A stretch of DNA of 64,000 nucleotides from Cristatella mucedo (lineage: Eukaryota; Bryozoa; Phylactolaemata; Cristatellidae): the NCBI GenBank assembly GCA_009760855.2, contig WPIO01000007.1, positions 10,379,001-10,443,000 on the forward strand, read 5' to 3'. Position 1 is the stretch's first letter; every line of letters begins with the position of its first letter. A program made the translations under genes and the position numbers. The notes under the pieces were generated by a model that worked only from the letters and a program-made list of their open reading frames with translations, was not told where the DNA came from and did not search any database. Below are positions 1-63,703 of the stretch, piece after piece.

Positions 1-957
1 GGATTAATGTGAATCGAAAATGATCATCCGAGGAACCTCTGAAGTATGGAGTACCTCAGGGCTTTGTGCTTGGTCCTCGGTTCTTTTCACGGTTTATACT
101 CTCTGGCAAACCGAGTGTGATTCAGAAATTTGAAGACCCAACGCTCAAAAGCGGCTTTGCCAGCGTATCTCCTGTTGAATATGCATAAAATTTAGGTGTC
201 CTGTTCCAAAGTGACCTTTCATTAGACGACCACACTAGCTCCGTAGTCAAGTCTACCTGCTTTCAGCTACATAACATTGCTAAAATGTGCGCTTGCTTAG
301 GCCGGGATACTCCATCTAAATTAATCCGTGCATTTCTTACTTGTTATTCGTTACATCCCATCCCCGTCTCGACTTCTGTAACACTGCTTGCTGGCCTACT
401 GGCCAATGCAAACAGGCGTTTACGGTTGGTGCAAAACTCTGCAGCTAGGCTTGTCACATCACACCGCACCACTTCTAGCCAACCTGCACTGGCTCCCAAT
501 CAAGCAACGCATCGACTTCAAGGCTCTGTCACTCATTGCTAGGTCCCTTCATTCTTTGGCTCCAATCTACCTACAAGATCTACCCCCCCAACCAGATGCT
601 TCCCACTTTCTCTTTGTTGCGTGAGACGAAGTCTGTTGGCTACCGAATGCGTACCGAAAGCCGCTTAGGCTGTGAGTTCGCTATACAAAACTCTCCTGCG
701 TAACGCCCACATTGTCTTTATGACTTTGTGGAATTACAGACGGAGATACATTACATTGCTGTGCATGCTGCCACTAACCACATTTTTGTGCTGACCTTGA
801 ACAAGTAAATTCTAATCATGTTATGCTCGTTGTCATTGAGCATGCTACCACTAACCATTCGATCATGCTTCTTTTGCAGCAAATGCAAAGTGCCTAGAAA
901 CAGATTTATTTGTCTGCGGCACTATAAAAAAACGTATTGTTATTATTATTATTATGG
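1..957 (+). mobile_element. LINE-A (CR1/L2-like) 3' fragment, mosaic with LINE-B tail
   Basis: Starts in reverse-transcriptase sequence (GVPQGFVLGPRFF), jumps over the YADD region and continues with NLGVLFQSDLSLDDH and the C-terminal LHWLP-type domain. At about 600-770 it carries the LINE-B 3' signature (CTACCGAATGCGTACCGAAA, CGGAGATACATTACATT). It then resumes LINE-A 3' UTR and ends in GTAAAG-like hairpin sequence plus (ATT)n at 930-957. Frameshifted and non-functional. Truncated by the window edge. Confidence 0.8.
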
Positions 958-1514
958 CTAGGCATTGGGCGGTCCTTAGCAAAGCTAATCTTGGATGGCG
1001 TATATTCCTTTAGTGAAGTATGTGTGCTTGGCAGCTGTCTTGGCATAAAAAAATAAACATTGCTTTGCTCAGCCTAACAATTAAAGTCTACGGTCTTCTG
1101 CGAGTCTATTCACGGCTGAGTCGTAAGAGTCGAAGACGCCTACTGAATTTTAGCTTGGCGGTACGATGCTTGCACTTTTTGCCTCAGGTCGGGATTCAAG
1201 TCCTGTAGCTAGAAATCTTTTTTCCAGCTATAGGCAGGGTGAAAGCCTCTAAGACTCTTTGCCTCGATAGAAATTTGACTCTTGAATCAGCGATTTTTGA
1301 TTTCACCAATGGGTCTTAACCCAGTCGCTGATGTGCTTGATCTTCACGGCCAGTAAAGCGGATTTGATGCAGTTGTCAATCTTGTATTGCTAATTGCAAG
1401 CGGTGTGAAAGTTGCTAGGACTCTTCCGCTCCTATTTGCACAAGGCCATTAAATCGACTGATTTTTACTTTACATTTAGAGGCTGTACACGTGTGCACGT
1501 TAATAAAAAAAAAT

Positions 1515-1670
1515 ATTTCATTTGCCATGCGTCCCAAGAGAACTTAATCTCTATCCAGACACTTCACATATGCAGCAGGGCTCGAGCCCATGACATCGGT
1601 CATAAAATTCATTCGTCTTGACCGTTGGTCGTTGAAGGCGAGCAACGTTACCACCGGGCCAAACCAGTGC
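1515..1670 (-). mobile_element. SINE-A (tRNA-derived)
   Basis: On the minus strand, a tRNA-like head ending in GGGCTCGAGCCC (box B region), then the 3' hairpin. The outer stem here reads GTGTC/GACGC, keeping pairing despite substitutions. Confidence 0.82.
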
Positions 1671-7765: not shown

Positions 7766-8070
7766 CTCTTAATAATAATAGTAAGAGCACACTTGATAAA
7801 GCGCCCTCAGCGAACTCAATCTCTTTCTAGGCGCTTAACATTTGTTCCAATGGAAGCACGATCGAATGATTAGTGGTAGCACGCTCAATAAACAACAAGA
7901 ATAATATAGTTAGGAGTGACATGCACAGGGTCAGCCTGCAAATATGGTTAGTGGCAGCATGCACAGTGTGAGCACGGATTAGCACATAAAGGACGAATCA
8001 CAGGAGTCCACTAAATGCTGTGATAAATAGGTACGTTCCCGTTGCCATCTCTATCCACATCTCTCTCGAA
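7766..8070 (-). mobile_element. LINE-A 3' end
   Basis: Reverse complement of the LINE-A 3' UTR: hairpin sequence near 7796-7835, then the GACATGCACAGGGTCAGC and GGACGAATCACAGG stretches shared with 41.0 kb. Confidence 0.82.
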
Positions 8071-10041: not shown

Positions 10042-10135
10042 ACTACATGCTTCCTTTGCAGCAACTGTAAAGTGCCTAGAAAGAGATTGAGTTCTCTGAG
10101 GGCGCTATAATAAATGCTTTATTATTATTATTACC
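10042..10135 (+). mobile_element. LINE-A 3' tip, severely 5'-truncated
   Basis: Only the last ~90 bp: TTTGCAGCAACTGTAAAGTG, hairpin, then TTATTATTATTATT. A typical dead-on-arrival insertion. Confidence 0.85.
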
Positions 10136-10489: not shown

Positions 10490-10695
10490 GAGCCGTAGCC
10501 ACTAACCACATTTGCATGCTGACCCTGTGCATGTCACCCCTAACCATGTTATTCATTTTGTTTGTTTTTCAAGCATGATTTTACTTACCATTCAATTGCA
10601 TGTCGCTTTGCAGCAAATGTAAAGCGCCTAGAAAGAGATTAAGTTCTCTGAGGGCGCTTTATCAAGTGCATTATTATTATTATTATTATTATTGT
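10490..10695 (+). mobile_element. LINE-A 3' end nested in LINE-B
   Basis: Plus-strand LINE-A 3' UTR with hairpin (10621-10660) and (ATT)n tail. It splits LINE-B sequence that is contiguous at 32690-32730 (GATGAGCC...TCGGCAGTAGG). The flanks repeat GTAG, a likely short target duplication. Confidence 0.88.
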
Positions 10696-11480: not shown

Positions 11481-13021
11481 ATCATTTAATTTCAGGAAGT
11501 TTTCCGACATCCAGGATTGAATATCGGCAAGGCAAGCATTCAGTTTCACAGTTGCTGCAGCAGATTCCGACGGTTTGAATGACAAATACAACTGAGTATC
11601 GTCAGCATAGAAATGATATCCTAGTCCATGGGCCTTAACACTTTTCCCAGAGGTTGTGTATAAATGGAGAACAGCAAGGGACCGAGTACAGACCCTTGAG
11701 GGACTCTACAGGTGACCCTTCCCGTGTGTGAGACCTGACCCCCACACGACACGGATTGAACACGATCAGACAAGTATGACTTAAACCACACCAGTGCTTC
11801 GTCTGCCAGACCGATCGCTGTTCTCAATCGTTCAAGCAGAACTTCGTGATCAATGGTGTCGAAGGCAGCAGACAGATCTAGCAGAGCTAGGGCAGTGACA
11901 TTCCCGCCGTCGTTGCCACGTAGAATGTCATTGTTAACGCGGAGGAGAGCAGTTTCAGTGGAGTGCTGCCTCTTGAACCCTGATTGAAATGTTTCTGACA
12001 TTCCATTATTTTCAATATGTTCAACCAGCTGCTTAGCAACAATTTTTTCAAGAATCTTGATAAGAACGGTAGAAGGGAAACTGGGTGATAGTTTGCTAGG
12101 ACCTCTGTATCTGATCCAGGCTTTTTAAGAATGGGTCTAACGATTACCGATTTGAAGGACTTGGGGACGACCCCTTTTCCCAAAGAAGCATTAAAAATCT
12201 TGGTTATGGCAGGGCTAAGTTGGTCTGCCAGTGAAGACCACAGAGATGAAGGTATAGGGTCTTCAGGAGACGAGGCACACGTGCAAACGAGCGGGCGGCC
12301 TGACCAGGAGGTCTGAGGAATCTGGTGCCGTCGCGGCTGAATAAAAGCTGGTCCGTCGGTTTTGCAAGGTTCAGCTTCGGTCCGCATTTGGCCGCCTCTG
12401 CTCGCCTGCCGGAATCCGGCCCGTTGGACCCCTCCGCATTTCGCTTGCGAAAGTCACCGCACAGATTTAGGTTAGAGCGGAGCATTTTCGAGGAACATGT
12501 CTGGACGCATTTCGGAAATGAGTTTTCTTAAAGGCTGATGCAGCGTCCCTGCTTGTCGATTCGCTTGCGTTTGTCGAGGGGGCACAATTGTCCGAAGGAG
12601 GGAATGGTCGAGGGTGCGGGCGCACAACCTCGACCAGCGCTGTCGCGAGCAATTCGACGAGGCGTTAGCTCAAACCAAAAGGCAATGACCAATGGGGGTC
12701 GCGTTCAGCGCCGGACCCCGGGCCTGCCCATCTGGGCGCCCAGCTGTGCGCCGGGAATGTGCCGACTCCTGTCTCGCGTCCCGCGTCTCGACCTTACGCG
12801 AGCGCCGAGCGGCGGGCGATTGCAGCCGCCGGCGCGAGGCGCTCTCGCGGCACCGCGCGCCTCCAGCCCGCCGGACGGGCGACGAGGGGGTGGGACGTCG
12901 CCGCAACCGCCGCGCAGGTCCCATCAGACCGCGCCGGCTGGCCTCCGCGGTAGGTGAGACTGCGCGCGAGTTTGCGGTCGCTTTCAGCTCGCAATTCGGA
13001 TGCGGCTGGGCAACCGCTTGT

Positions 13022-13165
<144 letters not shown>

Positions 13166-13965: not shown

Positions 13966-14073
<108 letters not shown>

Positions 14074-14783
14074 TGCTCGCGCATGCGGGAAAGAAAGAGG
14101 AAGATCGGGTGAGGTGCTCGCGCGAACCCGACTGGCCGCTGACTGCTAGCGAGCTCGCAGCGCCCCCTGCTTCGGATCGCGCGGTAGCGGCGACAGAGGA
14201 CTACCGCCTGTGGACGCGAAGCGCTCGCAGTGCGCTCGCCACCCCGGTTGAGCGGCTTTCCCTGCCTGCGAGCTTGAGTGCGCACGAATTGCGATGGGAC
14301 AAACCGATAATTCCGCATCGCCGTTCGTGGCATCAGCTCGTCCCCGCACTGCGAATGCGTACGCGAACGCGCCCGTTGCGGGCCACCGCTTAGACGCCGC
14401 GCGCCTTTTTGAACGCCAGCCATGCGCACTTGAGAGCGCCGGCGAATGCGCCGGTATCAACGGCCTTTTCGCATTGGCGATTGTGTTTGTTTACCGCTGC
14501 GAACTATCGGCGCGTCTAATTGGCGGCAGACGCGGATAGCTGGCGAAAAAGAAGATCGCCCGCCGGCCCGTCGGCGGCTCGGGCCAGACGAGACGGAGCT
14601 CGGCGGCGGCGGCGGCGGCGGTCAAGCGGACGGCAGCTGCATATCGCGGCCTCGAGTCGGCGGCGTCAGTCGGACTGCAGCAGCGGCGGCAGCGGTGGCA
14701 GCACGGGGCCGCAGAAGCTCTGCGTCGAGACCGGGCCACTGGCGCCCGCGCTGACCGCCGGCTCGCAGGCGCCGCCGCTGCCC

Positions 14784-20320: not shown

Positions 20321-20323
20321 AGA

Positions 20324-20461
20324 GCTGGTTTGGTCTAGCGGTTAAGGTGCTCGCCCCGACCAAGGTCTGACTGAGGTCGTGGGCTCGAGCCCCGAGGCAT
20401 ATGTGAAGCGCCTGAATAGAGATTAAGTTCTCTTGGGCGCTATATAAATGAATTATATTTA
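20324..20461 (+). mobile_element. SINE-A (tRNA-derived), clearest copy
   Basis: TTTGGTCTAGCGGTTAAGG is a good tRNA A box and GTGGGCTCGAGCCCC a modified B box. The 3' part GCGCCTGAATAGAGATTAAG followed by TTCTCTTGGGCGC is the same hairpin as the end of LINE-A. Tail TATATAAATGAATTATA. Pol III transcription and LINE-driven retroposition are inferred. Confidence 0.87.
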
Positions 20462-25929: not shown

Positions 25930-28900
25930 GTTTCGTGGCGGCCAGCCTATTGCGCGTAGGCGCGCACCGAACGGCAGTAGGCGCTAGATTACGCCGCTAG
26001 GTAAGCGGCAGGTCAAGCCTACCATGCCGAGCCTTCGGCGTCACACATGCACATTGCAGGATGCTAACTCTCGCATCAGCCATTATTGGCAAGTGATGCT
26101 ACTATGAAGCTCGATGCAATATTGCTGGCGGTATAGCGGGGTATCCAGGCAAGCCTGTGAAAGGGAATCAGCTTATATTAACTCCTAGCTGAGACGTGAG
26201 AAGAAATAAAACAACCGAAAGTTTAGCAGACCAACAGTTTATCGTTCGGGTATGTGGTACAATAATTTAAATACGCGGACTCTGTACACCAAAACTCACT
26301 GCATTTAACTCCAGATATTTCTCCTGGAGAGTAACCTCCAGAACCATAGCCAAAAGAGCACAAGTATTGCTATTCTCCTGCAAGCTTCTCAAGCTGTACG
26401 CTATGCTAAGACGGTTCAAGCTAAAGCAACCTACTTAAGTAAGAAAGGTCTAGGCTGCCACGGTGCCTAGGTAATTGGGGAGGCCCTGCAGAAAACAGCT
26501 AATACCTGGACTATTGTTATCAAAGTCTTTAATTCAGGTTTTCAGCCACAGCTTGGGGGTTTGTACGCCACAGCTTAGACGATGGTGAACAAAAGTATTC
26601 TCTTGTACTGACGGTATTGATTATTTGTGCTATTGTTAATGCATTAAGTATCAACCCATTCATTTTGAATGCAAGTATGTATCAGCCTATTTATTTTGAA
26701 TGTAAATGATTCCGTCCGTTCGTGAATCCGGCCGGAAGTCCATAAACACGTCACTGACGTCACGCTTTGCCCCATATGATTGAAAATGTAAGACAATTCG
26801 AGACGATTCTATTCTTTTTTCATTTCAATGTTCAATCTTCATCCAGAGAATCACTTGCTTGATTTTCTACAGTTTAGTGCACTTCAGTGGTCTACCGTAG
26901 CCTAAACTCCATATTTCTGGGGTACTGGCACCCACAGCCAGCCATGCCCGTTGGGAGAGTACTACCAACAGTATAGCTTCAAGCACTTACTTGGCATCGA
27001 ATGTAAACGTGGGGTTAGCGCTCTAGGGCAATTCTCTAACAAGTTTTATACATTCGTTGGCAACTCTATGGTTGTGCTCGAGAGCACAGCTGGATTTTTA
27101 AATTGCCTCACCGTCCAAAAATAAAGAATTGCCATGCCAGCGAGTTCCAATGGCAGCACACGCATGGAGTACAAGTTGACTTGCGGCTCCTTATTTGGGG
27201 AGTCGTTTGCATGCTAGGGCTTGGTCTCTATGAATTGCTATTTGTTTTCATGACATCATTTCGTTTCATTGCTGTGTTCATTGCCAGCCTTAGCATTAAT
27301 TTGCACACTTTACATTTTCAATTTTCAATCTTCAAGCTTGTACTAAAACTCAGCTGAAGCCAAAGGTCACTTCGTACGAGTTTAGTTGACATTTTTCTGC
27401 ATTGCAGTCTCGATAGGACAGCTAGTCTGATTATGACATTGCTATTCAGTGCAACGTTTTGGTATTTCTTTAATAACGACAGCACTTATCTGGTGCTTCA
27501 TTAATTACCGCGATCGATATACAAACGACAGTATATTGGGCCGATCGTTACAGCAGAAGTACTAATTGAATAGGATGCTCGATTAGCTGTCAGAGGAATG
27601 CGCTTCGCGCGAGCCTCAGGCGAACTCAAGACAAAAGCCCAGTTTGAAGAGTAAAGCACAGCCAAGTCGCAGGGGAATCAATTGCCGGTAAGCAAAGCGA
27701 ACTACTGCGGTTACAGAATCGAACTTGCTGGCCGTGGCTGGTGCATGAACTCGAGACTGCTTGCCAGAATGGTGGAGTGTAAAATCTCGAAAACAATTAC
27801 ATCTCAAGATCTGTCGGTGGTGCAGGTACATACTCTATTCGGATCATGGCGACAACAAAATAGCTGAAAATTAGTGTAATTATAGAGTATAATTACTACA
27901 GAGAATATACCTTGTTCATTAGATGCAGCAAATATGTGCTCCTTCTTTCGACCGCGTGCATCGAGCGACTCTTTCTTTTGTAAACACGTGCTTAGACATC
28001 TTTTATTAGGTTAGCAATATTTTTACATTTAGCAGGTGTAATAGTACTTACTGAATTGTATAAGAAGTCTCTTCTGTCTACGTTGATGCTCGCACGTCCC
28101 ACCCCGTGTTGCATCGTTAGCTCGATAAGAACCGGCGGCTAATGTCTATGACATTATCCTGGTGGAATCCATGTAATGGAAATATAATTTGCTGGAATTA
28201 CCGAGTCATGTCACTAATGAGCAAGAACGATAAATACAAATAAATTATTTGTTTTGCGCCCTACGAGAACTTAGGCCTCTATTAAGGCGCTTCACGTATA
28301 CCGTTAGGCTCGATCCCAAGACCTCGGTCATGTCACATTTACCTTGATCTTTGTTCGAGGGGAGCACCTTGACTCTTGGGCCAAACCGGCGCGGCAGACT
28401 ATGCCTCCGTTAGATGCGATCTACCGGCCACTTCTGGCTGTCCAACCTTATTACAGAAGTTCGTAGTTCCCCACCAAAATACTCTTACTTGACAGGCCGT
28501 TATTGATTGCTTTAAAACTCAGGTCGATGACCCCAGTCAAACCGGCTCATTTCTCGACTATGTTTATCTTATGCTTGGTCCAACACGTTTGTCTTACTGC
28601 TCATGTTGGTGGCCATATTCCGAATTATGTGATCTGATCATATGCCGGCCCAATAACCTAATATGCCAGATTTCTACCTCGGATCGTTGCTTTAGCTCGT
28701 TTAGAATACCAGCTCCTTGGCATGACCATAGGAGCATAGAGTTTACCCAAACGCTACTTGAAAATAAGTAATTACCGAGAAATTTTTTGTAAATCGATGC
28801 AATAGAGGTCTTCTTGGCCTAGCGATTTGACTGCCGACAGCTTAGATACCCTCATTGAAAAACAACTAAACTTATGAGTGCTCTCGACGAGCCAACTTTC

Positions 28901-31182: not shown

Positions 31183-63703
<32,521 letters not shown>

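Follow-up and report, generated by a model that had tools for sequence, protein, structure and literature searches.

The locus studied here raises the question of whether a SINE that ends like a LINE is also moved by it. The window, which is the whole stretch of 64,000 nucleotides that we analysed (contig C665, positions 10379001-10443000, of a genome that spans 572 megabases in 688 contigs), contains a young SINE at 20322-20461 together with several 3' ends of a LINE, LINE-A, and an earlier note on this DNA had claimed that both fold alike at the 3' end and form a LINE/SINE partnership.

SINE and LINE copies and their common 3' tail

The copies and tails recognised in the window are the following, with the means of recognition in brackets.

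20322-20461, plus strand: young SINE copy, tRNA-like head joined straight to a LINE-type tail (direct reading and 40-copy alignment)
20395-20456, plus strand: LINE-type 3' tail of this SINE, hairpin at 20408-20440 (reading, RNA fold, covariance model)
1513-1575, minus strand: old SINE tail, outer stem GTGTC/GACGC (reading, covariance model)
28240-28303, minus strand: old SINE tail (covariance model)
40179-40241, minus strand: old SINE tail (covariance model)
43532-43594, minus strand: old SINE tail (covariance model)
58044-58106, minus strand: decayed SINE tail (covariance model)
60501-60563, minus strand: old SINE tail, outer stem GCACA/TGTGC (covariance model, search with the copy at 60488-60640)
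10611-10674, plus strand: LINE-A 3' tail with hairpin, then (ATT)n (reading, covariance model)
40893-40956, minus strand: LINE-A 3' tail with hairpin (reading, covariance model)
41112-41633, minus strand: LINE-A open frame, C-terminal part; the tail at 40893-40956 lies ~155 bases further downstream
62445-62508, plus strand: LINE-A 3' tail with hairpin, loop TTGAGT (reading, covariance model)
877-940, plus strand: older LINE 3' tail, GTGCC/GGCAC (reading, covariance model)
7784-7847, minus strand: LINE 3' tail (reading, covariance model)
10059-10122, plus strand: older LINE 3' tail, GTGCC/GGCGC (reading, covariance model)
34885-34945, minus strand: old decayed LINE 3' tail (covariance model)
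37236-37297, plus strand: old decayed LINE 3' tail (covariance model)
59700-59762, minus strand: older LINE 3' tail (covariance model)
11621-12124, minus strand: LINE reverse transcriptase fragment (RVT_1, E 1.7e-18)

The window also contains, at 51708-52094 on the minus strand, an exon that encodes an Arfaptin-like domain (PF06456, E 6.2e-17) and suggests a host gene of the ICA1/ICA69 type; a search for this exon in viral contigs gave 7 pattern matches, with 0 confirmed. Long simple repeats are found at 39082-39550 (CA)n, 13022-13160 (GCC)n and 13966-14078 (CT)n. Among the other contigs of the genome, C688 (21,008 bases) is mitochondrial: read with the invertebrate code (chosen by eye), in which AGA and AGG are serine, its COX1 is a single uninterrupted frame of 517 codons. 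This contig has 44% GC over locus L103 and contains repeated blocks, with pieces of the nad3 end among them, gene names being assigned by eye from translations.

In the focal SINE the outer stem of the hairpin is formed by GCGCC (20408-20412) and GGCGC (20436-20440), the inner stem by AGAGA (20418-20422) and TCTCT (20429-20433), and the loop is TTAAGT (20423-20428). Direct reading found identical stems in the LINE ends at 10611-10674 (plus), 40893-40956 (minus) and 62445-62508 (plus), which bears out the earlier claim that the SINE and LINE-A fold alike. The loop, described as TTAAGT in all the named copies, is so in most of them, the copy at 62455 having TTGAGT, and the outer stem of the copy at 1515, GTGTC/GACGC, still pairs as described, in what is a single dead copy. 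The copies listed earlier are all present, but the window holds more, as a covariance model built from 12 window tails found 16 at E < 0.001, of which 12 were its own input. Run over 220 kb, most of it targeted sequence, this model gave 135 matches with E no higher than 1, and at locus L041 it recognised the targeted LINE copy's own tail; another 94 kb yielded 50 matches with E no higher than 0.01. Scaling from one window, such tails may number of the order of 100,000 in the genome. The 5' internal bulge differs between the elements, being CTGAATA or CTGGATA in SINEs and CTAGAAA in LINEs, and the 3' side of the hairpin is one base shorter in the SINE at 20322-20461, and for this reason that copy is absent from the 7 window matches (5 LINE-type, 2 SINE-type) to a consensus hairpin pattern with up to 3 mismatches. 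The same pattern had 0 matches in 100 shuffles and 0 in the viral contigs. Predicted RNA folds had z scores, against shuffles, of -4.8 for the SINE tail, -6.2 for the LINE tail and -3.2 for the 1515 copy, and of -4.75 (SINE) and -5.46 (LINE) for the older consensus tails.

The earlier note had made its claim depend on the SINE tail extending to the LINE 3' terminus. The likeness spans the last ~61 bases and ends at a common terminus, beyond which LINEs carry ATT repeats and SINEs mostly TATTT or TA. The older SINE and older LINE consensus tails (the latter made from 33 tails, for some of which the class is uncertain) are identical at 52 of 61 positions without gaps, with a score of 43 against a shuffle maximum of 9. 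The young SINE and young LINE-A consensus tails are identical at 52 of 63 with 4 gaps, so that the two elements are slightly more alike in their older layers.

Both elements are present in many copies. The genome search with the young SINE scored 40 of 316 first-look candidates, at 96-100% identity and with the 20322-20461 copy among them; their alignment places the 5' start at about 20322, with a consensus that opens with TGCCGAGCTGG, and gives a layout of a head of ~80 bases, the tail and mostly short TATTT- or TA-like repeats, in flanking DNA that varies from copy to copy. Their mean divergence from the consensus, 3.8%, is skewed to the young end because the 40 were chosen as best matches. 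Using as query the copy at 60488-60640 (S60488), 40 of 3032 candidates were scored, which were its own site and 39 diverged copies at 79-86% identity; this older SINE is a longer form with a mean divergence of 16.0% (30 fetched loci, query site included). Head and tail abut directly in both forms, and when the copies are aligned (40 young, 30 old) no central domain is seen between them, as judged from this layout and not by comparison with the V-SINE, CORE-SINE or DeuSINE domain sequences.

The head may be of tRNA origin, as had been claimed, since it contains what we take, by eye, to be a box A-like TGGTCTAGCGG and a box B-like GGCTCGAGCCC. This part of the claim is qualified by ARAGORN, which found no tRNA within the window, and by Rfam, which had no match across the SINE at E up to 10. 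The folds of the head have z scores of -2.2 and -1.6 and a shape that is not a cloverleaf, and in the old SINE consensus the head ends pair as GCCGC/GCGGC.

LINE-A is abundant in the genome: when its C-terminal frame (41112-41633) was the query, 150 of 140,925 candidates were scored and all 150 had at least 89% identity. The hairpin tail was present in 30 of 30 fetched LINE loci, followed in nearly all by ATT repeats. In one LINE copy (L071, contig C38) a frame of 1057 residues is open and encodes endonuclease (PF03372) and reverse transcriptase (PF00078, RVT_1) domains, and its protein matches by sequence the LINE-1 ORF2 and R2 chains in PDB. From the look of its reverse transcriptase motifs, LINE-A is putatively L2-like. 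At L071 4860-5501, a TATCAAGTGCAATAT stretch is duplicated at the 3' end of this open copy, as reverse-transcription slippage could leave it, and upstream of the copy (L071 1-1700) there is a short repeat whose ends may resemble those of a SPIN-like hAT element.

Some SINEs and LINEs are found next to or within each other. A SINE lies inside the ATT tail of LINE-A at L040 and another beside a LINE-A tail at L067, and at L127 (C442:8036150-8036750) a LINE copy of about the last 65 bases, essentially the hairpin, is nested in the hairpin of an old SINE. A SINE-to-LINE template switch considered at C442 (L109) was rejected, as the SINE tail resumes past the LINE piece in L127 (score 51 of 78, 0 of 500 shuffles).

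Covariation in the hairpin stems

The earlier note had set compensatory change in the stems as a test, and on this point its claim is unproved, with no excess in SINEs selected by the head and with untargeted LINE tails above shuffles. Of 20 SINEs fetched with the head only, 5 had gaps or lacked the tail and were set aside, as was one for its nested LINE piece (L109); in the 14 used, a small sample, 57 of 70 cells were paired against a shuffled mean of 58.3, and 1903 of 2000 shuffles were as high. Keeping L109 (n = 15) gave 61 of 75 paired against 62.5, with 1938 of 2000 as high. In the untargeted tails, where relatedness among copies is uncontrolled, paired cells were 263 of 312 for LINEs (253.1 in shuffles, 1 of 2000 as high), 82 of 90 for SINEs (77.9, 28 of 2000) and 52 of 72 for unclassed tails (48.0, 73 of 2000). 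In the 12 window tails, also with relatedness uncontrolled, 4 of 6 outer pairs were changed on both sides (3 of 500 shuffles).

Because both GCGC arms hold a CpG, false compensation is possible in this hairpin: a 5' CG to CA decay together with a 3' CG to TG decay, or the reverse, restores pairing by accident. We consider it fairly probable that the compensatory changes seen in single copies reflect this decay on a palindromic GCGC/GCGC stem and not structural selection, which would be compatible with the partnership. In agreement with this, the CpG pairs 2-3 taken alone are not above shuffles in untargeted SINEs (888 of 2000 as high) and only weakly so in LINEs (63 of 2000), and the head-selected SINEs are without compensation. 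However, the whole outer stem is above shuffles in LINE tails and in the 12 window tails, and among 29 old SINEs selected with the whole S60488 element (query dropped) the stem CpG is intact in 5 on the 3' side and 9 on the 5' side, whereas at six other CpG sites the numbers of intact copies are 23, 21, 21, 20, 15 and 13.

In the same 29 copies, pair 3 is A-U in 13, G-U in 8, G-C in 4 and unpaired in 4. We rejected this A-U stem subfamily as proof of compensation, as the head-only set does not show it (A-U in 1 of 14 copies), and its presence among copies selected by the whole element is probably in part a selection effect; the private variants of S60488 are common to ~10% on average, and at most 34%, of the 29. 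There is a trap here of wider interest, in that GCGC-armed hairpins can imitate compensatory evolution under CpG decay, and queries that contain the stem can amplify the effect.

Proposed mobilisation of the SINE

The claimed partnership holds for the tail homology up to the terminus and for the abundant LINE with endonuclease, reverse transcriptase and the same hairpin, but compensatory change is unproved. We regard it as highly probable that the SINE is a non-autonomous retroposon moved by an L2-like LINE through the shared 3' hairpin, in a partnership of the stringent type. This is the best reading of the anatomy of both elements taken together with the published experiments on zebrafish L2 LINEs. 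According to it, the ~61 terminal bases of an L2-like LINE would have been fused directly to a tRNA-like RNA polymerase III promoter region, so that the SINE RNA would terminate in the hairpin required by the LINE protein on the RNA of the LINE itself; the LINE endonuclease/reverse transcriptase could then bind the SINE RNA, nick DNA and copy it by target-primed reverse transcription, acting in trans.

The differences in internal bulge and 3' repeats speak against LINE-A as the exact partner, and the SINE might be moved by another L2 family that bears a CTGRATA bulge and a TATACAAATGAATTAT end, LINE-A being a sister of the true partner. The bulge and the post-stem sequence are consistently unlike between SINE and LINE-A, and the older SINE tail is nearer to the older LINE consensus (85.2%) than to LINE-A (80.6%). 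Nevertheless, we find this family rather unlikely, as its bulge was seen in none of 52 LINE-type tails (0 of 19 young-type and 0 of 33 older), a count from which tails sorted as SINE by upstream sequence were left out, and the inner stem and loop, which are the part read by zebrafish L2 proteins, are unchanged between SINE and LINE-A. These 52 were what remained of 81 LINE or unclassed rows after taking away 17 targeted ones and 12 without ATT-like ends, and the LINE-type bulge CTAGA was present in 16 of the 19 and 16 of the 33. Since the SINE bulge was in none of them, the exact tail donor may have been LINE-A itself or a sister L2. We can tentatively suggest, while doubting it somewhat, that the tail came from an older L2 lineage and that the SINE retained its bulge and 3' repeats as the LINE lineage changed, with the LINE-A protein still mobilising the SINE through the shared inner stem and loop; if true, the pair would be long-lived and would have just the loop and upper stem in common.

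It could also be argued that the tail goes back to a single capture from an L2 and has since become a passive relic, the SINE being spread by other machinery or by DNA-level duplication. The head-selected copies without compensation would suit this, and so would the target-site duplications, which are short or absent: the longest flank-to-flank match in 40 SINE copies has a mean of 4.1 bases against 3.5 with swapped 3' flanks (7 of 400 shuffles as high), and it reaches at least 5 bases in 24 of the 40. However, the differing flanks of these 40 copies, the 3' terminus that is fixed while the short repeats after it vary, and the hairpin formed by young and old SINE sequences alike make such a relic very improbable.

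What we describe is a real SINE/LINE tail pair of a familiar kind, probably the L2 type. Its meaning is that of the well-known parasitism of a LINE by a SINE, here in one more genome; it adds an abundant pair from an invertebrate in which both partners have old and young layers, and this pair can be used to ask what the protein must see in an L2 tail.

Comparison with known L2 systems

In the zebrafish study (PMC4176376), the L2 LINEs ZfL2-1 and ZfL2-2 require their cognate 3' stem-loop, whose loop is read specifically while the stems can be swapped, and the protein binds it by a basic region that separates its endonuclease domain from its reverse transcriptase domain. The pair described in this work appears to fit this scheme, with the same inner stem, mostly the same loop and a looser outer stem. 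ZfL2-1 and ZfL2-2 also share with the present LINE a protein with both enzymatic domains, a 3' stem-loop built of an upper and a lower stem, and short tail repeats, but recognition was assayed there and is deduced from anatomy here (PMC4176376). Four hairpin and head letter strings had no match in the literature searched, which says little, as consensus sequences usually sit in repeat libraries.

A published table lists pairs of tRNA-SINEs and L2 LINEs in fish, frog, sea urchin and sea anemone (PMC3747384). UnaSINE1 and UnaSINE2 with UnaL2 (eel), HAmo SINE with HAmoL2 (carp) and the V-SINE SINE2-1_XT with L2-4_XT (frog) resemble the present pair in that a tRNA-derived SINE has a 3' end matching an L2-type LINE, whose machinery it would recruit by this means. 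They differ in that the Una SINEs are CORE-SINEs and the frog element is a V-SINE, whereas the SINE described here has no room for a central domain, a comparison made by description and not by hairpin letters (PMC3747384). Furthermore, SINE2-8_SP with L2-1_SP/CR1-3_SP in sea urchin and Nve-Nin-DC-SINE-1 with L2-22_NV in sea anemone, likewise compared by description, are also invertebrate tRNA-SINE/L2 pairs, in different genomes, so that pairs of this kind beyond vertebrates were already on record (PMC3747384).
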